Shown here: positions 8,042-21,766 of the stretch, piece after piece
Position numbering within the stretch: the stretch's first letter is position 1
Layout: every line of letters starts with the position of its first letter
From: Dokdonia pacifica
GTDB taxonomy: Bacteria > Bacteroidota > Bacteroidia > Flavobacteriales > Flavobacteriaceae
Direction: 5' to 3'
Length of the DNA: 64,000 nucleotides
NCBI RefSeq assembly: GCF_900188275.1
Contig: NZ_FZNY01000001.1
Coordinates: 682,001-746,000 of the forward strand
Notes under the pieces: generated by a model
Seen by the model: the letters and a program-made list of their open reading frames with translations, nothing else
What the model was told of the DNA's origin: nothing
Databases searched by the model: none
Position numbers and translations under genes: made by a program

Positions 8042-8335
8042 TCACTGTTGAATCACTTCTATTAACTGTTCTTTTGGCACCACACCTGACTGTCTCCAGA
8101 CTTGTTTTCCATTCTTGTATAAAATCATAGTCGGGACACCGCGTACTTGATATTTGGTGGCTAAGGGTTGATTTTTATCTACGTCTATTTTGACAATTTT
8201 AACGGCATCGCCTAGTTCTTCTTTGACTTGTTCTAGAATAGGCCCTAAGGTTTTACAAGGACCACACCATGTTGCATAAAAATCAACTAAAACGGTGGGA
8301 GAACTGGATATAATAGTTTGAAAAGAGGATTTCAT
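8042..8335 (-). CDS. trxA: Thioredoxin
   Basis: A 97-residue cytoplasmic thioredoxin, a protein disulfide reductase. The redox site is W23-C24-G25-P26-C27 in YATWCGPCKTLGP, with KIDVDKNQPLATKYQVRGVP (cis-Pro) and TMILYKNGKQV further on. The length (about 100) is normal. It is a single gene whose upstream region faces the rightward DUF2188 gene. Confidence 0.9.
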   Translation of the reverse strand: MKSSFQTIISSSPTVLVDFYATWCGPCKTLGPILEQVKEELGDAVKIVKIDVDKNQPLATKYQVRGVPTMILYKNGKQVWRQSGVVPKEQLIEVIQQ

Positions 8336-8395
8336 TTTTTTGATGTAAAATTAGGGTATAAAAATAGTATATTCAACATCGATAATTTCATTACT

Positions 8396-8680
8396 ATGCC
8401 TAAAGACAAGTCCTGGAAACAACTCATCTTAGATCTCGCCAAAGCCATCTCTGAAAGTTTAAGTGGTACCTCACGAGCGAGAACTTGGCACCAACATGTA
8501 GTTCCGTATGAGAATGGCTGGGCTGTACGCCGTGAAGGGAATAAGCGGATTACCTCCAAACACCGCAAACAGAGTACAGCGATTAACAAAGCTAAAATCA
8601 TCGCTAAAAGAAAGAAAGCTGATGTGATTATTCATCGAGCCAGTGGCGGGATTCGAGAGCGGATTAGGTATGGGGATTAA
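8396..8680 (+). CDS. DUF2188-domain protein
   Basis: A 94-residue basic protein. I choose ATG 8396 (MPKDKSWKQL) because the longer reading from 8318 would overlap the start of the divergent trxA. Residues ~30-94 match the DUF2188 pattern: WHQHVVPYENGWAVRREG, then KQSTAINKAKIIAKRKKADV, then IIHRASGGIRERIRYGD. Its role is unknown. Its last 4 bases overlap the end of the convergent hsdR, so it may be tied to the restriction locus. Confidence 0.7.
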   Translation: MPKDKSWKQLILDLAKAISESLSGTSRARTWHQHVVPYENGWAVRREGNKRITSKHRKQSTAINKAKIIAKRKKADVIIHRASGGIRERIRYGD

Positions 8681-11646
8681 TAATATTCCTTTATATAAGC
8701 ATAAGCCCTCTCAAACAAAGTTTGATCCTTATGTAATTTATATTTTAGTAACGCTTTACGCAATGACTTTTGTACTTCTCTCTCTCCTGAACTTGTTTTT
8801 TGCCATCCTGGAAAACGAACAACTCTAACTATAGCATCAATATCTTCAACAATACGCTCTACAACTGCTGGTGTCTTATCTGTTTTTAGTTCTAAAAATA
8901 ACTCTGTTAATGCTGCTTTTGGTGTCTTTTCTATTAATAGTTCTTCTAATTCTTTTTCTGCTTCAACAGTTTCTTTTGCCAACTTACAAAGCTCTTTTAC
9001 AAACTCTATTGAGGTAATTAATCCTTGTTCCGCTTGATCTCGAAGTTCTTCAAGACGTTCACTTAAAGATTTAAACTTAGGATTACCCGCGTTCTTCTTG
9101 AAACGCTTTATTAAAAGTTTCTCTAATTTTTTGGCGTTTTTAGGGTCTGGGTTATTGAATATATCCTCAATTACATCAGCATCTAATATAAATTCGTCTA
9201 AGTGATGAACTTCTCCTACATGTACGTTTTCATGAATCAACTTTGTCGTTTCTGCTCCTAAAGAGAACCAAAGTAATTTCCCAATATTATCAGCTGCAGG
9301 TTTAACGGACTCAAACACCTGAGACAACCATTTATAATCTTCTTGATATATGTTTAAAATAGTGTCTGGAGATAAAGATTCCCAAAGTTTAGATAAGAAT
9401 TTATAATCCTTTGCAAAGGCATCTTTTTTATCATTATTTCCTATTGCATTTTGAGCAGCTTCCAAACCTTCAAAACCTTGTATTGTTCTATCAACGCTTT
9501 CAAAATGAGATAATGTATCTCTCATTGCTTGAGGCAGTTTATCTCTTAATTCTGAAAGATTAGAGATTACGGTCTGTATACTTTCTTCGTCAAATTGCAG
9601 TGCTTTTGCGGCATCATCAAAGACTCCAAAATAATCTACAACACGACCAAAAGATTTTTCAGGATATAATCTATTAGTTCTACAGATTGCTTGAAGTAGT
9701 GTATGATCTTTGATAGATTTATCTAGATACATGGTTTGTAAAATAGGCGCATCAAAACCTGTTAAGAGTTTTGCCGTTACAATGATAAACTGCAAATCAG
9801 ATAATGCATCATTAAACTCATCTACTATTTTTTCTTGCTGACTCTTATCAATTCCCCATTTTTGTTTGAATTCTAGAGGATCGTTTGAAGATGTTGAAAT
9901 CACCACGCGACTCGCTTCTACAGGGAAATACTTATCCAACTCTTCTTTATATTGTACACATGCATACCTATCTGGGGTCACAATCATTGCTTTAAAACCA
10001 TGTGGTGCCACTTTCTCTTTAAAGTGAGTAGCAATGTCTTTCGCAATTTTAGCCACACGTTCTGGCGATTTTAAAAAAGCAGCCATTTTTGCTGATTTCT
10101 TATTTAAAGCATCTGCTTCTTCATCGGTTAAAGCGGTACTTTCTTTAAATTCTGCAAAGGCTTTATCCAGGGTTTCTTTGTCTACATGCACATCGACCAA
10201 TCGAGGTTCAAAATGCAAAGGCAGGGTTGCATTATCTCTAATAGAATCATGGAAGGTGTACCGTGACATATATCCTCCTTCATCTTCTTCTGCTCCAAAA
10301 GCCCAAAACGTATTTTTATCTGCTTTATTCACAGGAGTTCCTGTTAAACCAAACAGGAAGGCATTAGGTAATGCAGCACGCATTTGACGCCCTAAATCAC
10401 CTTCTTGTGTTCTATGCGCTTCATCTACCAGAACAATAATGTTCTCGCGCGTATTCATATTAGGTTTGGCATCTCTAAACTTAAAAATCATAGAAATGAT
10501 AATCTTCCGTGTATCATTTTCTAATAATGTTTGAAGCTGTTTGATATTATCTGTTGTCTCTACATTAGAAATATCTGCTGCATTAAACGTGCCTGTGATT
10601 TGGGTATCTAGATCCGTTCTATCAACGAGTACTATAACGGTTGGGCTTTTCAACTCTTTCTCGCGTCTCAATTTTTGAGCAGCAAATACCATTAATAAGG
10701 ATTTGCCAGAGCCTTGAAAATGCCAAAGAAGTCCTTTTTTTATCTTTCCCTCTTTTACACGATCTACAATTTTATTTGCTCCTTCGTATTGTTGAAATCT
10801 GGGGATTATCTTGATACGTTGCTTCTTTTTATTGGTCGTGAATAATGAAAAATTTTGTAGAATATCTAATACCCGTTTTGGATGTAACAGATCAGATAAT
10901 TCTTTCCCTACTTCCCCAAGTCCTAAACGTTTTGCAATAGCATCTTCATCATTTTCTAATCGCCAAGGTGCCCAATAATCTAAAGGCGTTCTAATCGCCC
11001 CATAATAGAGTTCTTTTCCTTCTGTAGCAAAAGATAAAATATTTGGTACAAATAATTGTGAAACAGCATTCTCATAGATATCATGAACCTCATGTGCACC
11101 ATCTAACCAACTTATGGCAGAACGTATAGGTGTTTTTGCCTCTCCAATAATGACAGGAATCCCATTGATAAATAATACCACATCGGGAATTTTGGTTTCA
11201 CGATGATGAATACGAAACTGTGTCGTGGCTATAAAATCATTATTCTTTAGCTCTTCAAAATCTATTAATCGTACAGGTACATGACGATTATTTTCGCCGA
11301 AAGGCATGGTTTTATCACCTTGTAACCATTTAAAAAATTCTTCGTTGGCACGTACTAAACCTACTTGATGCACAGAAATTAAGATGGCACGTAGTTTATA
11401 AATCACTTCATCAGCCAGATCTGGATTTGCTGTGATTTCAGGATTTAATCGAATTAAAGCAACCTTTAGATCACTTTCTATTAAAACTTCATTAACGGAG
11501 CGTTGTAACTCTTGTGGGGATTTATAGTGCCACGAACTTGTAGTGTAAGGGTCATTATCTTCCGCGATTTCTTGGGTATTTAAATTAATACCTGTGAGTT
11601 GCTTAATGATGTAGTTTTCTACACTGTTTAGTTCGTTGAAACTCAT
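8677..11646 (-). CDS. hsdR: Type I restriction enzyme, R subunit
   Basis: A 989-residue HsdR, the motor and nuclease of a type I restriction complex that cuts unmodified DNA far from the recognition site. The N-terminal PD-ExK nuclease shows Asp155 (IPDVV) and E169-A-K171 (IIGEAK). The helicase motor follows: Walker A-like FQGSGKS at 310-316, DEAH box at 408-411, then LTGTPV and the motif V/VI region (LLTGFDAPILQTMYLDK; LLQAICRTNRLYP). The C-terminal ~250 residues are helical, as usual for binding the methylase. It is last in the eight-gene leftward operon, 3 bases after the HNH gene. All motifs look intact. Confidence 0.95.
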   Translation of the reverse strand: MSFNELNSVENYIIKQLTGINLNTQEIAEDNDPYTTSSWHYKSPQELQRSVNEVLIESDLKVALIRLNPEITANPDLADEVIYKLRAILISVHQVGLVRANEEFFKWLQGDKTMPFGENNRHVPVRLIDFEELKNNDFIATTQFRIHHRETKIPDVVLFINGIPVIIGEAKTPIRSAISWLDGAHEVHDIYENAVSQLFVPNILSFATEGKELYYGAIRTPLDYWAPWRLENDEDAIAKRLGLGEVGKELSDLLHPKRVLDILQNFSLFTTNKKKQRIKIIPRFQQYEGANKIVDRVKEGKIKKGLLWHFQGSGKSLLMVFAAQKLRREKELKSPTVIVLVDRTDLDTQITGTFNAADISNVETTDNIKQLQTLLENDTRKIIISMIFKFRDAKPNMNTRENIIVLVDEAHRTQEGDLGRQMRAALPNAFLFGLTGTPVNKADKNTFWAFGAEEDEGGYMSRYTFHDSIRDNATLPLHFEPRLVDVHVDKETLDKAFAEFKESTALTDEEADALNKKSAKMAAFLKSPERVAKIAKDIATHFKEKVAPHGFKAMIVTPDRYACVQYKEELDKYFPVEASRVVISTSSNDPLEFKQKWGIDKSQQEKIVDEFNDALSDLQFIIVTAKLLTGFDAPILQTMYLDKSIKDHTLLQAICRTNRLYPEKSFGRVVDYFGVFDDAAKALQFDEESIQTVISNLSELRDKLPQAMRDTLSHFESVDRTIQGFEGLEAAQNAIGNNDKKDAFAKDYKFLSKLWESLSPDTILNIYQEDYKWLSQVFESVKPAADNIGKLLWFSLGAETTKLIHENVHVGEVHHLDEFILDADVIEDIFNNPDPKNAKKLEKLLIKRFKKNAGNPKFKSLSERLEELRDQAEQGLITSIEFVKELCKLAKETVEAEKELEELLIEKTPKAALTELFLELKTDKTPAVVERIVEDIDAIVRVVRFPGWQKTSSGEREVQKSLRKALLKYKLHKDQTLFERAYAYIKEYY

Positions 11647-11649
11647 CTG

Positions 11650-12552
11650 TTAAATAGATTTAAATGCCGCTAATACTATATTTCTAATACTGCTTGCTAA
11701 ATATGGCAATACAATAGCTGAAAAGTTTTGATGCGACTTTACAATAAACTTTCTTAATAAAGTATGCGTACTCTTTTCATTACTAGCATTAATAATTAAT
11801 TGGTTGATCTGGAAAATGATTTGTTGCACAAATTGATCATCATTATATATCCCATCACCTAACATTACAAAAGCACTTTCAACAGATTGTTTAAAAGGAT
11901 TGATTACATTTTCAACTCTTTCCAATCTTAATTCTTGGCGATTTAACAAACAAACTTCTATTGTTCCGTCACCTCTATTTTGAGTATCAACACCTTTTAT
12001 TCTAATTCCATTTCCAGATGGATCAATAAAAAAGCCAAAAAATAAATCTGGATTATCCACCTCAGGATGTAATAAATAAGGAATTTCATTCATTAATGGA
12101 TTGTTTTGCGCCTTCTGATGATCTTCGTCTAATTGATTATTAGCTAAAAAACTTGGAGTATAAACCCTATTCCCAATAATTGGGAATTTACTATGTTTAG
12201 CTCCCTCTCGATTACATTTCACACATGAAGGAAGTAGATTAGTCCATTCATAGCACAACCAATAATAACCATTATGGGCATTATCTTCTGCCACTTTCTT
12301 TTTAGGCCTATAGTGTTCTATATCTGCCTTTGCGAGACGTTCACAATAAGCACATTTATTGTGATAACTTAATGCTAATTGATCCTCAACCCTAGACCTT
12401 TTTTCATCTGGATCTCCATAAGATTCTCTATAAATCTTATCTGTAATATTATCCTTAGACATATTAGTTGCAATCTCTAATATAGCATCAGCAGTTGCTT
12501 GACTAGATAAAGTAGCTGTTTTATGGTTTTCAGGTTTAATTACAAATCTCAT
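11650..12552 (-). CDS. HNH nuclease, PtuB / TIGR02646-like
   Basis: A 300-residue HNH endonuclease. The zinc/HNH region covers residues 67-125: C67-x2-C70 (CAYCE), E79-H80 (IEHYRPKK), E102-W103-T104-N105-L106 and C110-x2-C113-N114 (PSCVKCN), followed by KHSKFPI. This layout is that of the TIGR02646 family, whose members are PtuB nucleases of Septu defence and of retron Ec78-type systems. Its start overlaps the end of the AAA ATPase gene by 4 bases, which fits the usual PtuA-PtuB order. Here the pair is embedded between hsdS and hsdR. The C-terminal ~150 residues are not recognised. It probably cuts DNA or RNA on a signal from the ATPase. Confidence 0.85.
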   Translation of the reverse strand: MRFVIKPENHKTATLSSQATADAILEIATNMSKDNITDKIYRESYGDPDEKRSRVEDQLALSYHNKCAYCERLAKADIEHYRPKKKVAEDNAHNGYYWLCYEWTNLLPSCVKCNREGAKHSKFPIIGNRVYTPSFLANNQLDEDHQKAQNNPLMNEIPYLLHPEVDNPDLFFGFFIDPSGNGIRIKGVDTQNRGDGTIEVCLLNRQELRLERVENVINPFKQSVESAFVMLGDGIYNDDQFVQQIIFQINQLIINASNEKSTHTLLRKFIVKSHQNFSAIVLPYLASSIRNIVLAAFKSI

Positions 12553-14780
12553 TTTCTTTTATTTTCAAATCTTTCTATTAAAGCTTTTTCTTTTTCGTCT
12601 GTTATAAATTCTTTTATTTTATTTTCTAATTTGTCTACAAACTCAACTTCGGCAAAAGTGTTTTCTGTTCTAATTAAAGCTCCTTTTTCCCTGTTATCAT
12701 TAGTAATATCATCCATGCCAAAAATGGGTGACGTTAAAATAGTATTTGGCAATAACTCTTCGAGATATATCTTATCATCAACTCTTTGCGTATAAACGCC
12801 TCTTTCCCAATCTCGTTTTACTACAAAAACAGCTGAATTTTTAGGAGCACCTAATAATGGAATCGGACTATGTGTGGTCACTATAAATTGTAGTAATGGA
12901 AATGTTTCCGAGAGTGTCACGATGAGGTCTTTTTGCGCTTTTGGATGAAGGTGTAAATCTATTTCGTCTATTAAAACAATACCTCTTAACTCTGAGGGGT
13001 CAATTTCTTTAGGTTGTTGGTGAAATAAACGGATTATGATATCTGAAACTAGATTTAATATATTTTTATTTCCCGAAGACAATTCATCCCATCTTAAGGT
13101 CATTAACTCATCTGAACCTTCAGATCGAATAAGGTATTTAACATCAAACTTATTGCGACTTTTTTGTTCGTATTGTACCTTACGCAAGTCTGGAATAATC
13201 TCAGGAAGAAGTGACATGATACGCCGTATTCTGGATTCTACTATCTTGTGATTTCTTGTCTTCTTATTAGCGTTCTTCGTCCACAATTCCAATTGTTTAT
13301 CAAAACTCAACAATTTTGCTCCATTTTCAAAAAGAGATGCGAATGATCCTACTTTACTCAGTGATTTTCTAAAGGTCTCTTCATTTATAAGATTTGATGT
13401 CTGTTCCAAACGATAGGGCCCGTACATGGCTAATCCTCTGGAAACGACGGCTCTTTTTGCTCGTACATTTTCATTTTGATATCTATTAAACGATATTTCT
13501 CTTCCTTGTGTAATTAAAGTTGCATTTACCTCAAAGATTTTACTCCTTATTTCTTTAGGACTCAGTGTACGATTCCCTAAAGCGGTTCCAATAGTACGTA
13601 ATAACATCGTTTTCCCTGAGCCGTTTTCCCCTGTAATAAACACCCATTTGGCATTTCCAACATTTATGTTTTCTTCTTTAATAAGACCGAAATTCTTGAT
13701 TGAAATTTCTTGCAGATAATCAGCTTTCCCTTCATCTTCTATCGAATATAGAGTTAATTCTGGTAGGTTATTATTATTTTGTCGATATCTGAATAGATTA
13801 TTGAGTCGATTATTGAACTCCTCTTCAGGAAATTTAATAATCATATCTCCACTTAAGCGATCTTTTTGTGTAATGGTTGTCCTTTGAAATTCTTCCAACA
13901 AATTATTGATAGAGTGATAATCAGTCTTTAAAAACGCACCTAAACAATTGATGTAATCTGTAAATTGAAAATTGTCATATTTCTTTATAAATAAGCTTTC
14001 TTGTTGTTCTACGTCTAATTTCTGTTGAAGGACATTATTAATATTTAAAAAGTTTTTTAAGCTTTTATAAATATCTGTTTGAATGATTAATCTACAATGT
14101 CTATTAGGATTTATCAAAAATGATATAACAGGTCTTTTATGGATATGATCCATCCCTGTCCAAAAAGAAATAGCTACAGTTTCTTCTCCATAAAACCAAT
14201 AACCTTTATCTAAGTTACTTCTGTTATTTGAGTCTCTAATTACAAACGTAAATTCTGGATCTTCATCAGATTTATCTAACAAAAAATTGAATAACTCCTC
14301 ATGTAAATCAAAATAATCACCATCTTTTTCAAGATTAGAACTGATCTCTTCAAGTCGATAATAAATTAAATCAAAAGATGGATGTGCATCATTGATGAGT
14401 CTAATTTTATCTAAACCAAAATTGGGTCTAACGGTTTTCACGGTTCCATATCTGCCACCTCCAATTGTTGCATTTTGGATACCGTATCTTGTTACGCCTT
14501 CTCTTGGGTTATCCATATCATAATAAACCCATTCATCAACTATTGTTCTCAATGAAAACTTTTTCTTAGGGTTTTCGTATTGTTCAATAACAACTCCATA
14601 AGCAACAAAATGTTGCTTATATTTTAATATTAGCACATCTCCTTTTTCAATTGAAAAATAAGTTCCTTTCTGAGTTGTGTTGGGATGTAGCGCAAATTCA
14701 CTAGAATCGATAATATCCTTGAAATTACTTTCAATATAATCTGATCCTGGTTTACCTGCACTAACAACAAAAAAATTCAT
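12549..14780 (-). CDS. AAA ATPase (PtuA/OLD-like) with EVE/PUA-like N-terminus
   Basis: A 743-residue protein. The ABC/SMC-type ATPase half has Walker A GENGSGKT at 384-391, a signature-like ELSSGNK at ~566-572, Walker B VLIDEIDLHLHP at ~602-613 and a TTHSPIPLL switch at ~635. This is the pattern of PtuA, RloC-like and OLD-like defence ATPases; no TOPRIM domain follows. The N-terminal ~130 residues (FFVVSAGKPGSDYIESNF ... KGDVLILKYKQHFVAYGVVI) look like an EVE/PUA-like domain of the kind that reads modified bases in type IV restriction enzymes; this is my inference from sequence feel. Residues ~130-350 are unassigned. It is translationally coupled to the HNH gene. Confidence 0.8.
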   Translation of the reverse strand: MNFFVVSAGKPGSDYIESNFKDIIDSSEFALHPNTTQKGTYFSIEKGDVLILKYKQHFVAYGVVIEQYENPKKKFSLRTIVDEWVYYDMDNPREGVTRYGIQNATIGGGRYGTVKTVRPNFGLDKIRLINDAHPSFDLIYYRLEEISSNLEKDGDYFDLHEELFNFLLDKSDEDPEFTFVIRDSNNRSNLDKGYWFYGEETVAISFWTGMDHIHKRPVISFLINPNRHCRLIIQTDIYKSLKNFLNINNVLQQKLDVEQQESLFIKKYDNFQFTDYINCLGAFLKTDYHSINNLLEEFQRTTITQKDRLSGDMIIKFPEEEFNNRLNNLFRYRQNNNNLPELTLYSIEDEGKADYLQEISIKNFGLIKEENINVGNAKWVFITGENGSGKTMLLRTIGTALGNRTLSPKEIRSKIFEVNATLITQGREISFNRYQNENVRAKRAVVSRGLAMYGPYRLEQTSNLINEETFRKSLSKVGSFASLFENGAKLLSFDKQLELWTKNANKKTRNHKIVESRIRRIMSLLPEIIPDLRKVQYEQKSRNKFDVKYLIRSEGSDELMTLRWDELSSGNKNILNLVSDIIIRLFHQQPKEIDPSELRGIVLIDEIDLHLHPKAQKDLIVTLSETFPLLQFIVTTHSPIPLLGAPKNSAVFVVKRDWERGVYTQRVDDKIYLEELLPNTILTSPIFGMDDITNDNREKGALIRTENTFAEVEFVDKLENKIKEFITDEKEKALIERFENKRK

Positions 14781-14793
14781 ACTTCTATTATTT

Positions 14794-14821
14794 TAAAACA
14801 CCTGATTAATTAAACTCTTTT
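14794..14821. repeat. 28-bp direct repeat, copy downstream of HEPN-like gene
   Basis: Identical over 28 bases to 15785-15812 (begins TAAAACACCTGATTAATTAA). On the minus strand it still reads KSLINQVF-stop, a ghost of the hsdS 3' end, although here it supplies the last codons and stop of the HEPN-like gene in another frame. Confidence 0.9.
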
Positions 14822-15780
14822 TCACTCCAACAATTCTCATATACTTTTTTCTCCAAATTCCATAATGCTTCTTGGCTGTTAATCTGCTTAAACATATCTA
14901 TATCATTTTGAGAAACTTTATCAATATCAGCATTATATTGTTTGAGTAATTCAACATCATTCTTCTTCTTCGTTACATACATTTTAAATACACATCCGTT
15001 ATCTTCTTTACCAACAATAGTCATTTTATCTATTTTGAATTCCGTAAGTCCTACAATAAGAGGTTTATTAAACCTATGTTCTGTTAAGCTATTATATGCA
15101 TTTGTTATAACTGGATTTACATATAAGAGTAAAAGCTTGCGATTCCCTTTTTGAAAATATTTGAATAGATAAACAACATCGACAAGTAGTTTTCCCTTAT
15201 GACATTCGAACACATACAATCCCTTTTGAAATGCAGATAATGCAGTCTCTAATTGATTATTTTTTTGATGAACCTTTTTAAGTGTCTTGGTATCTAGAAA
15301 CAATTGATTGATAATATTAATAAATAACATGATATTATTATTAGTTCTACCTGCTATCCCCATCAAACTTCTTTGATCAGGATGCATTTTCATATTTCTA
15401 ATATTACGTGCTCTATCAAAATCTGATTTCAAAAACGACAACTCATCGATAGCGCACATCTCATCAATTAACGTACTTAAATTTTTATCACGAACAACTC
15501 CTTTTTTGTTAGGAGGCAACTTTACATCAATGCTAAGTTGTTTTGCCTTTAGTTTTACAGCCATTTCCATTACTAACAATGCTTTTGACATTGCTTCATC
15601 ATACATCGGGTAATGAAAATAAGAATGTGCCATTATATAACTTATCGTTATATACGATTTTACGATATCATCTGGGACATTGTCATGAAACTTTCCAACC
15701 ACAACATATTTTTCAACAAATTCTTCTTTAGTTTTAATTCCTAAAGCATTCCATGTCTCATCTGACTCATAATATCCCAT
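14806..15780 (-). CDS. Candidate HEPN-domain protein inserted in the hsd operon
   Basis: A 324-residue soluble protein with no family I can name. Residues ~40-160 are helical and carry R128-N129-M-K-M-H133 (RARNIRNMKMHPDQRSLMG), matching the R-x4-6-H active-site motif with a polar residue after Arg that marks HEPN ribonucleases. The preceding helices (YMAHSYFHYPMYDEAMSKAL, then LLVMEMAVKLKAKQ) also fit HEPN or DUF4145-like folds. The C-terminal half (~190-324) is beta-rich with KGKLLVDVVYLFKYFQKG. It sits 3 bases after hsdS and 25 bases before the AAA gene, bounded by a perfect 28-bp repeat of the hsdS end. Best guess is an RNA-cutting effector or partner; unproven. Confidence 0.6.
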   Translation of the reverse strand: MGYYESDETWNALGIKTKEEFVEKYVVVGKFHDNVPDDIVKSYITISYIMAHSYFHYPMYDEAMSKALLVMEMAVKLKAKQLSIDVKLPPNKKGVVRDKNLSTLIDEMCAIDELSFLKSDFDRARNIRNMKMHPDQRSLMGIAGRTNNNIMLFINIINQLFLDTKTLKKVHQKNNQLETALSAFQKGLYVFECHKGKLLVDVVYLFKYFQKGNRKLLLLYVNPVITNAYNSLTEHRFNKPLIVGLTEFKIDKMTIVGKEDNGCVFKMYVTKKKNDVELLKQYNADIDKVSQNDIDMFKQINSQEALWNLEKKVYENCWSEKEFN

Positions 15781-15783
15781 CCC

Positions 15784-17016
15784 CTAAAACACCTGATTAA
15801 TTAAACTCTTTTGTAATGCTTTACTCCTTGATATTTTTTCTTCTAAACTAAAAACATTATTAGAAATTTTTTCAAGTTTTTCAGCAATTTTGACTTGATC
15901 TTCCTTATCAATTTTTGGAACTTTTACTTTAGCTAAATCTGAATTATAAATATGCATAACAGTTGCTCCTGTTCCATACTTGTTTAGTTGCTGTCTAACA
16001 AATTGTGAATTCATTAAATAACCTAAATAATAACCATCCATATCGTAAGGTCTAAACAATAAGGTATCACTTCCTGCGTAAGCTTCTATGTCATCAATAA
16101 AAGCAGCCGATTTACCTATTTCTGTTATAGTTTCACCCGAACCTGCAAAAAGAATATCATTCTTCTTGAGTAAAAAACTTTTCGCTTTGACTTCTTCTGA
16201 AATGAATGAATTGAAATTCCTAATTACCCTATGATGCTTAGTATATAATTCTCCATATCTGACACAAGGTAAACCTTGAGTTTTAACATCAGCTTTTGGT
16301 ATTCCTTTTCCTTTTAATAACTCCCCAAGTTCGACTAATGGAACTAATTCACTTTTTTTAGAAAATTCATCTAAAACTTCACGAATAACTTTTCCTTTCA
16401 AAGAAATACCATGAATTTCATTTTCGATATTTGAATTTAAAGTAGCTTCAATCTTATTTAACGCTAAAATATCCCTCTCAACAACCTCATCCATCGCCCA
16501 AAGTAATTCTGCAAGTTTGGCTTGTTGGTCTTTGGGTGGTAGTAGGAATTCATATTTAGCAATATCCTTCCAATTGATATATGGGTTAACAGAACCTTTA
16601 GAGTTCTTAATTGAGTTTTCTGTAAAACCCTCAGACATCATTATAAAAGGCAATAATCTTTTGTCAATTTTAGTTTCATTTGCTTTTATTACAAATGTTG
16701 TATTGGAGGTTATACCATCAAAATCTGCAATAGCAACTTTTCTTAAATACGTTCTTCGTGAACCATATAAAATATCTCCTTTTTCAAACTTTCTTATGAA
16801 AGCAGGACCTAAATATTCATCTGTTAAATCTCCCCATTTTCTAATATGAAGATCTTTCGACCCCATATGCTCACCTTTAATATATCGTGTTAGATTAGTA
16901 TTTTCACGGTCCACTTTACCCTTTTGTTGAATAGCAACATCACCAAACTTAGTTAGCTTCCACTTACTTTTATCTAAACAAAGTTCTTTATTTGTATTTT
17001 CTAATATTTCACACAT
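15784..17016 (-). CDS. hsdS: Type I restriction-modification specificity subunit
   Basis: A 410-residue HsdS that gives sequence recognition to the methylase and nuclease complexes. Two target recognition domains are visible: ~15-165 (WKLTKFGDVAIQQKGKV ... SVNPYINWKDIAKYEFLLPP) and ~225-370 (VPLVELGELLKGKGIPKADV ... GTGATVMHIYNSDLAKVKVP). Each is followed by a helical spacer (DQQAKLAELLWAMDEVVERD; DQVKIAEKLEKISNNVFSLE). The end KSLINQVF is the usual HsdS terminus. It begins directly after the stop of the upstream hsdM. Its 3' 28 bases are duplicated beyond the next gene. Confidence 0.93.
   Translation of the reverse strand: MCEILENTNKELCLDKSKWKLTKFGDVAIQQKGKVDRENTNLTRYIKGEHMGSKDLHIRKWGDLTDEYLGPAFIRKFEKGDILYGSRRTYLRKVAIADFDGITSNTTFVIKANETKIDKRLLPFIMMSEGFTENSIKNSKGSVNPYINWKDIAKYEFLLPPKDQQAKLAELLWAMDEVVERDILALNKIEATLNSNIENEIHGISLKGKVIREVLDEFSKKSELVPLVELGELLKGKGIPKADVKTQGLPCVRYGELYTKHHRVIRNFNSFISEEVKAKSFLLKKNDILFAGSGETITEIGKSAAFIDDIEAYAGSDTLLFRPYDMDGYYLGYLMNSQFVRQQLNKYGTGATVMHIYNSDLAKVKVPKIDKEDQVKIAEKLEKISNNVFSLEEKISRSKALQKSLINQVF
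15785..15812. repeat. 28-bp direct repeat, copy at the hsdS 3' end
   Basis: Perfect match to 14794-14821; encodes the last residues of HsdS (KSLINQVF). The two copies start 991 bases apart and bound the HEPN-like gene. Confidence 0.9.
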
Positions 17017-18474
17017 TTAGTTAAGTAATTCAAATAGGTTATTCATAGATTCATTCAACCTTTTGCCATCTTCATTCCATTTTTTAAATGCTTTTGGAAA
17101 TGAAATTTCATTTTCTGAATTATCTTTCTTTACATAAAAGTTGATATTCATATTACCATCAAACTCAAGTATTTCTTTAGTTGTTGCTACTTTAGAATAA
17201 TGAGGAATATCAACAAAATCTTTATAAGCTTGATACATTTTATTAATATGGTCTTCAGTTAAATATGCTAAGCCTTTATTATCTATCACATCATCCTTTC
17301 CATTAACAAATAACACTTTACCTTTTCTCTCTTTTGTTTTATTAGTATTACCTATAAGTATCATAGCTTCCATTGGCGAATTATAAAATAAGTTTGCACC
17401 TAAACCAATAACAGCTTCAATTTGATCTTCTGCAACCATTTTACGTCGCATTTCAGCCTCCATATCTCTAAACAGAATACCATGAGGCCAAAGAATAGCA
17501 AAACGACCATTTTCTTTATCTAGACTTTTATGTATATGTTGCTGGAATGCATAATCTGCACATCCTTGCGGGGGTGTGCCCCAAAGGTTACGCCCAAAAG
17601 GATCGTTTGTAAATGCTTTTTGATCCCACGCTTTGATAGAATAGGGTGGGTTGGCCAGAATTACGTTAAAAGTTTTTAAAGTATCGTTTTCTAAAAAAGC
17701 AGGTTGTGCTAGCGTATCACCACGAATAATACTAAACTCTTCTATACCATGCATAAACATATTCATACGCGCTATGGCAGAGGTAATCAGGTTAATTTCT
17801 TGTCCGTATAATTTGAGGGTTCTGTATTCCTTGCCTTCATCACGTAAATGCAGGGCGCAGTTTAATAATAAACCTCCAGAACCACAGGTAGGATCGTATA
17901 CGCTTTCTCCGGGTTGTGGGTCCATGATCATAGTCATGAGTTTTACCACGGTACGGTTGGTATAAAACTCGGCGGCGGTATGGCCAGAATCATCTGCAAA
18001 CTCTTTTATTAAATACTCGTACGCATTTCCTAACTGGTCATCGGGTACGTTTTCTAAATTGAGTTTATGTTGTGAGTAATGTTCAATAAGATTGGTTAAT
18101 GTTGCATCACTCAATCTATTTTTATTGGTCCAAGAGGCATCTCCAAAAATACCATATAAAGTTTCTGGATTAGCCTTTTCAATAGCGCGCATAGCATCTT
18201 GTATGGCGACACCAACATTAACCGTAGTTTCTCTTACGGTATTCCAATGGGCGTTTTCGGGGACTACAAAATGATGATGTTCTGCAAAAGCGGCATACTC
18301 TAAGTCTCCATCACTTTCTTGTAATGCTTTTTCAAACTCTTCATCATATACATCACAAATGCGTTTAAAAAACAATAACGGAAAGATGTATTGTTTATAA
18401 TCTCCAGCATCTATGGTCCCACGTAATGCGGTGGCTGCTCCCCATAAATATTTTTCTAGGTTTTGTTGGGTCAT
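17017..18474 (-). CDS. hsdM: Type I N6-adenine methyltransferase subunit (second copy)
   Basis: A 485-residue HsdM. N-terminal helical domain 1-150 (YIFPLLFFKRICDVYDEEFE), then the methylase: AdoMet-binding motif I DPTCGSGG at 194-201 and catalytic motif IV NPPY at 275-278, followed by the FAILWPHGILFRDMEAEMRR region. The usual 'EFYTPR' reads EFYTNR here. It lies directly upstream of hsdS, so it is the likely partner of that HsdS. It is clearly homologous to the hsdM at 20285-21766 but diverged throughout, so this is an old paralogue or a second system rather than a recent duplication. Confidence 0.93.
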   Translation of the reverse strand: MTQQNLEKYLWGAATALRGTIDAGDYKQYIFPLLFFKRICDVYDEEFEKALQESDGDLEYAAFAEHHHFVVPENAHWNTVRETTVNVGVAIQDAMRAIEKANPETLYGIFGDASWTNKNRLSDATLTNLIEHYSQHKLNLENVPDDQLGNAYEYLIKEFADDSGHTAAEFYTNRTVVKLMTMIMDPQPGESVYDPTCGSGGLLLNCALHLRDEGKEYRTLKLYGQEINLITSAIARMNMFMHGIEEFSIIRGDTLAQPAFLENDTLKTFNVILANPPYSIKAWDQKAFTNDPFGRNLWGTPPQGCADYAFQQHIHKSLDKENGRFAILWPHGILFRDMEAEMRRKMVAEDQIEAVIGLGANLFYNSPMEAMILIGNTNKTKERKGKVLFVNGKDDVIDNKGLAYLTEDHINKMYQAYKDFVDIPHYSKVATTKEILEFDGNMNINFYVKKDNSENEISFPKAFKKWNEDGKRLNESMNNLFELLN

Positions 18475-20283
18475 TTAATTTGGAATATTATTTATAGTCT
18501 CGGTTTCAACAATCTTAACATTTAATATTTTTATTAATTTTTGTTTTAATAACTCTCTTCTTGCATCATAAAAGTTTACAAAATTTGAAAATGTAACGCT
18601 TTCATCAACTGGAAAGAAGTGCATATGTTTAAAAGCTAATTGTTCTTGTTCTGACGGGTAAGCTTCATCTAACCAAACATCTAACTTCTTTGCATTCTTT
18701 TGTTTATTCTCAACAGCTTCTATTAATTGTAAATTTGGCAAAGAATTATATCTTGAGATGTAAGCTTCTCTTTCATCAAAAGTTTCAATTCCAAATTTCT
18801 CTAATTTCTTATGGGTAAAAAAGGTTTTTGGATGCATATGATCTTGATGAAATTCATAACTTCCTTTTAAAGGATAAATCAAACTAAGAACCATAAAAGC
18901 AAATGAACTACCGTAATTAGTAGTTAATAGATGCTCTATATTATCTTCATAAAACTCTAAGGACTTATTACTCCCTTTGTATCTTTCTATTAAAGCTTCT
19001 AAAGGAAAATCTCCTTCATTTTGATTTATAATGTTTCTATAAACAGGATATAAACTATCTGGCGTGCCACCAAATACTTTTTTAAGTAAAGCGCGAATTA
19101 ACCATTCTTTTATTAGTTTCCTGTTGTTTTCTTGACTTGAATGGTTTAGTAAATTAGATTCTGAAATACCACGTTTTTTAATAAAATAAGCAATGGGTAT
19201 AATAGCATTATTTGCAGTTAACGCTTTATTATTGAAACCAAAATGATAGATTAGCTTTATAGTGGATGTAATCGCACTTGAAATATCATCCCATTCATCT
19301 TCAATCTTACTCATGTTTTCTGAGCTAAAATTGTCTACATGAAAACGAATATCTTTTATATTAGACAAAACAAGACAAGATTTTAACACAATATCTTTAT
19401 TAAAAGAATACCCTCCTCCAATTGCGTTTATTTTATCTACAAATTCATGTATTATTTTTCTAGCATCTTTCTTTTTCCATTGCGCTGTTGCAATAGACAA
19501 TAATAAATCAGAATAACTCAACTTTGTTCCTCCACTATTAATTCTAATAAAAATTTGAAGCACTTTATCTAGTTCTTCACTTTTCTCTAAGAAGAAATTT
19601 ATGGTTTCATTTTCACAAATTACTTTGAATAATTTTGAAAGCGTATTCATTGAAAAATCAATTTCATTTTGAGTCCATAATGAACTATCCATTAATTTGT
19701 TTTTCACTAAAAATTGCATTACTTCGGTTATATCTTTAAATCCAAGAACATCACCTACTCTAAACCAAAAATACTTTTTTTCTGTTTCATGCTCATACCA
19801 ATTCAAATCATCCTCTGACAAAAATTGAAAATCATATTCTCTATCTGAATCTGAAGATTTCTCTAACAAGTTTACATATAATTTCTTTGTAGGGAAAGCA
19901 TAGTCACTACTCCATTGGTATTTAGGTAATTTTCTGGAATCACTTCCTTTAAGTCCAATATATAAAGAAGTTAGTCTTTGCTGTCCATCTAAAATTGCTA
20001 TTCTATCTTTCTCTGAACTTATATCTGCTGGTTGATTATGTTTATTATCTCTTTGATGATAATCTTTCAGAAACCGATAAAACTTAAACTTATCAATATT
20101 TTCAGATTTTACTTTCCAAAATAAAAAAGTACTAATTGGATAGTCTCTCATTAAAGAATCAAACAATGTTTCAATTTGATAAGTTCCCCAAACAAACTCC
20201 CTTTGTATTGACGGTAGAATAAATTCTTGATCCTGTATAGCTGTGATAGCTTCTTTTATGGTTATTGGTTTTTCGTAAGCCAT
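18475..20283 (-). CDS. DUF262-DUF1524 (GmrSD-like) protein
   Basis: A 602-residue fusion protein of the GmrSD type IV restriction group, whose members bind nucleotide and cut modified phage DNA. The N-terminal ParB-like DUF262 shows LPSIQREFVW (23-32) and ILDGQQRLTSLY (97-108), the usual nucleotide-handling motifs. The C-terminal HNH-like DUF1524 shows D481-H-M-H-P and NLQLIEAVENKQKNAKK. The middle is helical. It is packed between the two hsdM genes (1-base gap to the upstream one, directly followed by the ATG of the next), so it is surely co-transcribed. GmrSD-like proteins are usually separate loci; here it is part of a type I operon. Confidence 0.88.
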   Translation of the reverse strand: MAYEKPITIKEAITAIQDQEFILPSIQREFVWGTYQIETLFDSLMRDYPISTFLFWKVKSENIDKFKFYRFLKDYHQRDNKHNQPADISSEKDRIAILDGQQRLTSLYIGLKGSDSRKLPKYQWSSDYAFPTKKLYVNLLEKSSDSDREYDFQFLSEDDLNWYEHETEKKYFWFRVGDVLGFKDITEVMQFLVKNKLMDSSLWTQNEIDFSMNTLSKLFKVICENETINFFLEKSEELDKVLQIFIRINSGGTKLSYSDLLLSIATAQWKKKDARKIIHEFVDKINAIGGGYSFNKDIVLKSCLVLSNIKDIRFHVDNFSSENMSKIEDEWDDISSAITSTIKLIYHFGFNNKALTANNAIIPIAYFIKKRGISESNLLNHSSQENNRKLIKEWLIRALLKKVFGGTPDSLYPVYRNIINQNEGDFPLEALIERYKGSNKSLEFYEDNIEHLLTTNYGSSFAFMVLSLIYPLKGSYEFHQDHMHPKTFFTHKKLEKFGIETFDEREAYISRYNSLPNLQLIEAVENKQKNAKKLDVWLDEAYPSEQEQLAFKHMHFFPVDESVTFSNFVNFYDARRELLKQKLIKILNVKIVETETINNIPN

Positions 20284-20284
20284 A

Positions 20285-21766
20285 CTATATAAACTCTTTT
20301 AAAATCGTTTTAAATTTCTCCTCTGCTTTTTGACTTTCGCGCCAAGCGAGCTTTAAATCAGCTAAAGCTTCCTCAACACTTGGTAAATTATCTTCAATGA
20401 TCTTTTCTACATATAAAGGGATATTCAAGTTGAAATCATTTTCTATAATCTCATCAATGCTTGCCACTTTCACATAATTCTCAACATCTTGATACGTAGC
20501 ATACCAATCAAATAATTGGTTTACATGGCTTGTTTCTAGGTAGTTTTGCGCACGACCTATTCTTACTTGATCTGATCCATCAATAAACAGTACTTTATTT
20601 TTTTTTGAAGTTTCTTTATTTTGTTTGAATACCATCACACAGGCTGCTAATTGTGTCCCATAAAAAATGTTTGATCCCAAACCAATAACGGCTTCTAACA
20701 AATCATCTTCTAGGAGTTTCTTGCGAATCTTTCCTTCTGCCCCCTTTCTGAATAAAGCACCATGAGGTAAGACTACTGTCATACGCCCTGTACTATTCAT
20801 AGATTTAATCATGTGCTGTACCCAAGCCATATCTCCATTACCTTTTGGTGGCACTCCAGCAATGTTTCTACCGTAAGGATCATTTGCCCAATTTTCTGCT
20901 CCCCATTCTTTTAAAGAGAAGGGAGGATTTGCAATTACACAGTCAAATGTTTTTAAACCATCTGCTGCAAAAAAAGCAGGATTTTTCAAGGTGTCTCCTC
21001 GGGCAATTTGAAAATCTTCTATCCCGTGCAAAAACATATTCATTCTTGCGATAGAACTGGACGTTAAGTTTTTTTCTTGACCAAATAGCCTAAGGGTTCT
21101 ATAATCTTCTTTATTCTCTTTTAAATGATCTACACACTCTAAGAGCATGCCTCCTGTACCACAAGCAGGGTCGTAAATAGTTTCACCTTCATGAGGATCA
21201 AGGATTAATCCAAGCAAGTGAACTACAGAACGTGGCGTATAAAACTCTCCTGCTTTCTTATTTGTTAGGTCTGCAAAATGCTTGATTAAATATTCATAGG
21301 CATTTCCTAACATATCTGGTTCAACCAAAGAGTTAGATAAGTTATACTGCGAAAAATGCTCTATTAAATCTATTAATAATCGATCTGATAGTTTGTTTTT
21401 ATTGCTCCATTGAGCATCTCCAAAAATGCCATACAATAACTCTTGGTTGGCTTGCTCAATACCTCTCAATGCTTTTTCAATCACGAGTCCGACATTAACA
21501 GTCGTTTCTCTTACATCTTTCCAGTGACACCCTTCTGGAATTTCAAATCGATGAAATTCTGGTAATGATGCATATTCAATATCTCCATCTGATTCTTCAA
21601 ATGCTTGTTGGTATTCTTCATCATACACATCGGATAATCGTTTAAAGAATAGTAATGGGAATATATATACTTTAAAATCTGAAGCATCTACGGGTCCTTT
21701 AAGAATCCAAGCTGCTCTGGACAGGTATTGTTCTAATTGAGAGAGTGTAATCTTTTCTTGCGGCAT
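20285..21766 (-). CDS. hsdM: Type I N6-adenine methyltransferase subunit (first copy)
   Basis: A 493-residue HsdM and the first gene of the operon. Motif I DPACGTGG at 199-206, GEFYTPRSVV just before it, motif IV NPPF at 280-283, and TGRMTVVLPHGALFRKGAEG. All parts of a working adenine-N6 methylase subunit are present. It resembles the other HsdM of the operon along its length (for example YIFPLLFFKRLSDVYDEEYQ here), yet differs at many positions. No hsdS follows it directly; the next gene is DUF262. It may share the single HsdS or serve the DUF262 protein. Confidence 0.93.
   Translation of the reverse strand: MPQEKITLSQLEQYLSRAAWILKGPVDASDFKVYIFPLLFFKRLSDVYDEEYQQAFEESDGDIEYASLPEFHRFEIPEGCHWKDVRETTVNVGLVIEKALRGIEQANQELLYGIFGDAQWSNKNKLSDRLLIDLIEHFSQYNLSNSLVEPDMLGNAYEYLIKHFADLTNKKAGEFYTPRSVVHLLGLILDPHEGETIYDPACGTGGMLLECVDHLKENKEDYRTLRLFGQEKNLTSSSIARMNMFLHGIEDFQIARGDTLKNPAFFAADGLKTFDCVIANPPFSLKEWGAENWANDPYGRNIAGVPPKGNGDMAWVQHMIKSMNSTGRMTVVLPHGALFRKGAEGKIRKKLLEDDLLEAVIGLGSNIFYGTQLAACVMVFKQNKETSKKNKVLFIDGSDQVRIGRAQNYLETSHVNQLFDWYATYQDVENYVKVASIDEIIENDFNLNIPLYVEKIIEDNLPSVEEALADLKLAWRESQKAEEKFKTILKEFI

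Follow-up and report, generated by a model that had tools for sequence, protein, structure and literature searches.

Does a row of defence genes gathered around a type I restriction–modification system work as one fixed machine, or does the type I system serve as a frame for exchangeable defence genes? The locus that raises this question lies in a 64,000-nucleotide stretch of the Dokdonia pacifica genome (contig NZ_FZNY01000001.1), hereafter the window. Eight leftward ORFs span positions 8677–21766, with spacings of 1, 0, 0, 3, 25, −4 and 3 bases, and are as tightly packed as the first-pass annotation had described them. Their order in the direction of transcription, consistent with family scans, is M1, a DUF262 protein, M2, S, a HEPN-like protein, PtuA, PtuB and R. 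The place between M1 and M2 is called slot 1 below, and the place between S and R is called slot 2. The features are:

20285..21766, minus strand: M1, methylase subunit of the NPPF class (m6A class by analogy); AGEF at residue 172, NPPF at 280; best solved relative 7vru_A.
18475..20283, minus strand: slot 1 cargo, BrxU-like protein of the GmrSD family; GmrSD_N; HEC-05, 721 bits over residues 1–589; PDB 7p9k, 437 bits over 3–587; DGQQR at 99.
17017..18474, minus strand: M2, methylase subunit of the NPPY class (m4C class by analogy); AAEF at 167, NPPY at 275; best solved relative 7vru_B.
15784..17016, minus strand: HsdS with two recognition halves; Methylase_S in two stretches, the first half nearest to 7vru_C.
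14806..15780, minus strand: slot 2 cargo, HEPN-like protein, probable RNase.
12549..14780, minus strand: slot 2 cargo, Septu PtuA ATPase; PDLC00287, 549 bits over 158–742; GENGSGKT, LSSG and LIDE.
14301..14780, minus strand: N-terminal domain of PtuA (about residues 1–140 of the 160 covered), probable reader domain; 50% identity over 139 residues to an McrB-like start in locus L020.
11650..12552, minus strand: slot 2 cargo, Septu PtuB HNH nuclease; PDLC00316, 358 bits; CAYC, EHYR and CVKC.
8677..11646, minus strand: HsdR, restriction and translocation subunit; TIGR00348, 537 bits; HSDR_N, SWI2_SNF2; DEAH, and GSGKS in the translation.

The strict Walker pattern used in the motif search missed HsdR, yet GSGKS is visible in its translation. 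A DUF2188 gene (also matching PHROG 3220) is located at 8318–8680 on the plus strand; its 3′ end and that of hsdR share 4 bases. A promoter scan returned 63 sites against 64.7 expected; a further scan returned 5 against 5.0 expected, none of them inside the operon. The whole operon had no match at the DNA level in a plasmid collection. Among 30 genomes, the upstream flank gene was present in one, the window’s own, and the thioredoxin gene of the flank in 27.

The row contains two hsdM genes. M1 and M2 share 51% identity, and a tree of 80 M2, 73 M1 and 3 other rows, built by a quick method, puts each group in a clade of its own. AGEF and NPPF occur in 73/73 M1 proteins, and AAEF and NPPY in 80/80 M2 proteins counted, the window included; the count omitted the split M2 of L067, and one M1 carries an additional DPPF. 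These two motif pairs mark the non-canonical type I enzymes of the m6A/m4C kind, whose M1M2S trimer methylates adenine on one strand and cytosine on the other, according to the available portions of the PacII study (PMC9613975). The nearest solved proteins of M1, M2 and the first half of S are all subunits of PacII (PDB 7vru). With two distinct M subunits of these motif classes and PacII subunits as the closest solved relatives, the frame fits the known PacII-type family and is not a standard type I system to which an extra hsdM has been added. The two fixed motif classes and two clades rule out hsdM2 as a redundant copy or as part of a second merged system. Since the motif classes are those of M1M2S and the nearest solved proteins are PacII subunits, the second hsdM is best read as part of one enzyme, and the two genes as the M1/M2 pair of this family instead of a merger.

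As described in those portions (PMC9613975), PacII resembles the operon in its AGEF/NPPF and AAEF/NPPY methylases and single S; unlike it, the window operon has other defence genes inserted at the M1|M2 and S|R boundaries. The same text portions nowhere mention inserts, and the words operon, gene cluster and locus do not occur in them. The two-hsdM locus of Mycoplasma agalactiae was considered as a counterpart and set aside, its arrangement, as far as the source portions describe it, being different and including three hsdS genes. In L035, an Oleispira MAG (a gammaproteobacterial bin), both M1 and M2 are placed among Flavobacteriaceae in the tree, by misbinning or transfer.

A scan of genome contigs with M2 found 182 stretches encoding a relative, of which the best 80 were kept; the counts of frame loci given below refer to these best 80 of 182. 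Loci were annotated by mechanical ORF calling (at least 70 residues) and phmmer, and some short ORFs are possibly spurious. M1-M2-S-R is the recurrent frame of these loci, and inserts are found at two places in it. The first-pass annotation had reasoned that its reading would fail if homologous operons nearly always lacked the inserts and these showed separate promoters and no synergy; mostly the operons have inserts, slot 1 being occupied in 60/75 judged loci (empty in 15/75) and slot 2 in 41/67 (empty in 26/67). The slot ORFs lie on the operon strand in 219 of 221 cases, and spacings of 20 bases or less make up 86% in slot 1 and 72% in slot 2. Where slot 1 is empty, a 4-base overlap of M1 and M2 is commonest (7/15); where slot 2 is empty, it is a 2-base gap between S and R (18/26). 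The M2-S junction is broken by ORFs in one locus of 79, a metagenome contig. Two distant probable copies on plasmids, from Exiguobacterium and Streptomyces, consist of two adjacent methylase genes, S and R with zero cargo. Because of these bare copies and the empty slots, the frame does not need the cargo.

The use of the slots differs between phyla. Among the best 80 of 182 loci, slot 2 is filled in 41/51 Bacteroidota vs 0/16 others, and slot 1 in 47/57 vs 13/18. Same-strand genes follow R within 60 bases in 10/15 non-Bacteroidota loci, several of these genes being defence-like, vs 13/37 in Bacteroidota. A third cargo place behind hsdR is possible outside Bacteroidota: genes directly behind hsdR at L096:15676-21300, L073:15619-17409, L093:15568-17466 and L099:15641-17317 match TmtA, UG19 reverse transcriptase (DRT), MkoA and PDC-M62A. 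At L069:15548-18837, L084:15653-18936 and L090:15650-18971, a protein of 841–849 residues is encoded directly behind hsdR and is followed by a gene of 247–271 residues. In L069, the first protein combines an N6-methylase with PtuA in one chain, and the second is PtuB-like; the first gene of L084 matches PtuA and type I methylase profiles. L092:9750-11654 encodes a protein in which an N6-methylase is joined to a single recognition half of HsdS; its gene follows one for an AriA-like ATPase, itself located behind hsdR.

Type I operons with a single M, taken from the same order, served as controls. ORFs were found between M and S in 5/12 and between S and R in 8/11; this count takes in L016, L017 and L019 (in the last, the ORFs are on the other strand), and L115 lacks S and R, and L112 lacks R. 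Since the controls also hold ORFs, embedding is general in type I loci of this order, and published cases exist (PMC11411939 and PMC12255303, in the portions available). Three features are peculiar to the m6A/m4C frame: its slot at M1|M2, the protection of its M2-S junction and, as judged in frame loci alone, the sorting of cargo by slot. Locus L019 is the second type I locus of the window’s own genome (contig C19), a single-M locus with two opposite-strand genes between hsdS and hsdR. Seven of the ten controls L109–L118 (L109, L110, L111, L113, L115, L117 and L118) carry a gene of 184–208 residues, weakly HsdS-like, before hsdM; the one scanned, from L111, is a single Methylase_S half.

Cargo genes of the best 80 of 182 loci formed 64 clusters, open slots and the window included. 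All 31 clusters present in at least two loci were confined to one slot, complete slots being considered; shuffled labels gave a mean of 7.1 and a maximum of 14 in 5000 shuffles that are blind to kinship, so the strength of this separation is overstated, because kinship and linked gene pairs are ignored. Ten slot 1 representatives were scanned and included GmrSD, HEC-06-like GmrSD, Schlafen AlbA_2, HipA_C and DUF4145; the others comprised one doubtful match and four without a Pfam family. A broad GmrSD cluster is found in slot 1 of 30/75 loci, and genes of this cluster occupy slot 1 in 5 of the 8 loci carrying Septu in slot 2. Twenty slot 2 representatives were scanned in Pfam and ten in PADLOC. 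Besides Septu, slot 2 holds McrBC, DarT with a macro domain, AbiEii-like PDC-M21AB, TIR and TmtA-like genes, as well as weakly MkoA-like, GIY-YIG, DUF3644 and Sacsin-like ones and several without a family. The PDC-M21AB/AbiEii-like pair was noted in slot 2 of L023, L026, L030, L043 and 13 other loci. The PDC-M21B-like gene stands directly before R in 17/17 loci (best 80 of 182), and the first gene of the pair has 71–436 bases in front of it in 18/18. Some cargo may have its own promoter, given such leading spaces of 70–436 bases.

Loose clustering of a defence island, with a gene order due to chance, would agree with the general tendency of defence genes to cluster and with the inserts often held by type I operons of the order. 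The two recurrent slots, the nearly uniform strand of their ORFs, the protected M2-S junction and the slot-pure families make such a reading hard to hold, and we consider it extremely improbable.

The slot 1 protein of the window matches HEC-05 over nearly its full length, and this match and the DGQQR motif place it with BrxU/HEC-05. A Pfam scan for GmrSD_C (DUF1524) gave no match and a DUF1524 pattern of guessed spacing missed it; DHMHP is visible in the sequence. The protein is BrxU-like and of the GmrSD family, and it should cut DNA with modified cytosine. The earlier suggestion that defence genes are nested in a compact row, where a type I system encloses a probable modification-dependent nuclease, is supported. 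Some BREX systems carry BrxU, which deals with modified phages able to evade their methylation-based partner. The window operon likewise has a BrxU-type enzyme beside a methylation-based partner, which is type I here and BREX there. BrxU is the same as HEC-05 in the portions available of a study of TgvAB (PMC11411939). That study describes a Vibrio type I operon that harbours GmrSD-like genes acting in a complementary manner against modified phages; there, two DUF262 proteins are encoded between hsdR and hsdS of an ordinary type I frame, whereas the window has one BrxU-like protein between M1 and M2.

The first cargo gene of slot 2 lies directly after hsdS. Its HEPN-like product carries an R-N/D/H-x-x-x-H motif, in the form RNxxxH, that is invariant in 10/10 relatives, and none of the families compared with the model of the protein (VIA) stood out except Csm6. 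It is probably an RNase. Relatives occur in 8/80 frame loci (best 80 of 182) vs 2/296 genomes of the order, one of the two being a weak partial match. The gene for PrrC, a HEPN-fold RNase, sits between hsdS and hsdR of its type I operon; PrrC is held quiet by the type I partner and fires when restriction is disabled. The HEPN-like protein is encoded at the same position and, unlike PrrC, has no ATPase domain; the likeness is one of gene position.

By analogy, the type I complex could keep the slot 2 cargo, especially the HEPN-like protein, quiet until a phage inhibitor disables restriction. The position immediately behind hsdS, the invariant motif and the excess of relatives in frame loci speak for such guarding; most slot 2 cargo is self-contained (Septu, McrBC, DarTG), and a 27% identical HEPN-like relative belongs to another operon, on a Hymenobacter plasmid. 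The latter (L124:8992-9954, Hymenobacter monticola) is at the end of a row of TerB-C, ATPase, DEAD/DEAH helicase and BRCT genes. We regard guarding as unlikely; it is compatible with layered defence and differs from it in the trigger.

The remaining slot 2 genes form a Septu pair, the PtuA ATPase adjoining the PtuB HNH nuclease, with the motifs of both intact. In this they resemble Septu PtuAB (PADLOC profiles; PDB 8ee4, retron PtuA chains), and both score below the NCBIfam cut-offs of the retron Ec78 PtuA and PtuB models. Unlike known Septu, the window PtuA has an extra N-terminal domain in common with an McrB-like protein, and its tail, like PtuB, comes from a lineage other than that of its body. 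A second defence module between hsdS and hsdR, the position of slot 2, is also described in the portions available for the RptR-RMS-DarTG island of E. coli (PMC12255303), which has a single hsdM, no slot 1 and a repressor in front. DarT and macro-domain genes are found in slot 2 of L044 as well.

Residues 1–139 of PtuA are 50% identical to the start of the McrB-like protein encoded in slot 2 of L020, where the gene stands before an McrC-like gene. The domain occurs in 4/80 frame loci (three PtuA, one McrB-like; best 80 of 182), found within this sample with slot 2, and in 1/395 genomes of the phylum, the window’s own; plasmids gave no match. The N-terminus had been labelled EVE-like, and this label failed the sequence tests made: no Pfam family, EVE included, matched at E up to 10, and hhalign with two EVE proteins gave a probability below 1%. 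An EVE-McrB-like protein was found in L120. In McrB-type enzymes, the N-terminal position holds a DNA-reading domain, and the sharing of the domain with an McrB-like protein suggests a part in DNA reading.

A bolder proposal takes in the frame, both slots and this domain. The m6A/m4C frame would be a dedicated chassis with two ports, slot 1 directed against escape-modified DNA and slot 2 holding backup or suicide effectors that are controlled by the frame and triggered by the loss of type I function, with the new PtuA/McrB reader domain linking detection to the choice of effector. We put it forward tentatively, as an improbable elaboration.

Cargo turns over rapidly. In pairs of loci with M2 at least 85% identical, slot 2 sets agree in 0/34 and slot 1 sets, by broad cluster, in 13/60 (best 80 of 182 loci). 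The closest relative of the window also shifts along the operon. The M2 tail and first S half are closest to L020, L021 and L023, the second S half to L043 and L059, PtuA residues 1–640 to L043, L051 and L059, and the PtuA tail and PtuB to L032, to which, among others, R is also close. The identity of PtuA to L043 is 92% at residues 601–650 and then falls to 52% and 26%, and that to L032 is 44% at residues 551–600 and then rises to 66%, 76% and 79%. This pattern suggests a crossover within the conserved core of the ATPase, by which the PtuA tail and PtuB were swapped together.

Over 61 loci, that of the window among them, variation in the M2 tail follows that of the first S half (partial rank correlation 0.47, a value reached in 0/300 permutations) and does not follow that of the second (−0.07, reached in 286/300); the M1 tail shows no covariation with either the first (−0.05) or the second (0.01). 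Contact is one explanation, because TRD1 adjoins M2 in PacII, according to the portions available (PMC9613975); the adjacency of the two gene ends is another.

The turnover bears on the idea of one fixed machine of eight proteins whose parts work only together, akin to the single unit with a fixed gene set that had been proposed at first. All eight genes are tightly spaced, and the HEPN-like protein, PtuA and PtuB are encoded together in L059 and L028 too. The same gene set was found in none of the 67 loci judged for slot 2 (best 80 of 182), the slot 2 sets of close pairs differ without exception, and Septu, BrxU-like and type I genes are each found without the others. A fixed machine is therefore very improbable. 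The composite-operon reading of the first-pass annotation is supported as to the nested row with its probable modification-dependent nuclease, and not as to a unit with a fixed gene set; its EVE label failed at the sequence level. Since inserts are the rule and the exact set is not, exchangeable modules describe the locus better. We favour, with some confidence, a layered modular defence operon, in which an m6A/m4C type I frame carries cargo in two fixed places and the cargo is exchanged among relatives.

The observations behind this reading are the gene identities, the intact motifs, the recurrent slots with their slot-specific cargo and the mosaic ancestry; the activities, co-transcription, triggers and any cooperation of the parts are inferred. 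On that footing, the layered operon might work as follows. M1, M2 and S would form one methyltransferase marking adenine on one strand and cytosine on the other, and HsdR would cut DNA without these marks. Modified cytosines would be the change that lets phages escape the frame, and the BrxU-like type IV enzyme of slot 1, cutting DNA with hydroxymethylated or sugar-bearing cytosines, would cover this escape. The Septu ATPase/HNH pair, perhaps gated by the PtuA reader domain, may be a further or last-resort effector, and the HEPN-like protein, probably an RNase, may be another such effector that stops the infected cell. Cargo in both slots would be exchanged by recombination with relatives.

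Neither the embedding of defence genes in type I operons nor the m6A/m4C family is new. The literature searched, in the portions available (including PMC11411939, PMC7641849, PMC12255303, PMC9465063 and PMC9613975), showed no recognisable cargo in m6A/m4C type I operons, and it contained no account of a two-slot rule in which cargo is specific to its slot, of the domain common to PtuA and McrB or of the joint exchange of the PtuA tail and PtuB; the founding m4C paper and the embedding preprint lie outside this search and may mention inserts. Embedded defence genes have been known case by case, and the 80 frame loci (best 80 of 182) reveal which places admit genes, which places exclude them and how the genes are divided between the slots. 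Natural exchanges of S halves and of the tails of M2 and PtuA indicate contacts that can be tested, and the genes without an identified family in both slots are good candidates for new anti-phage systems. The slot rule itself is a testable claim on the coupling of restriction with backup defences.
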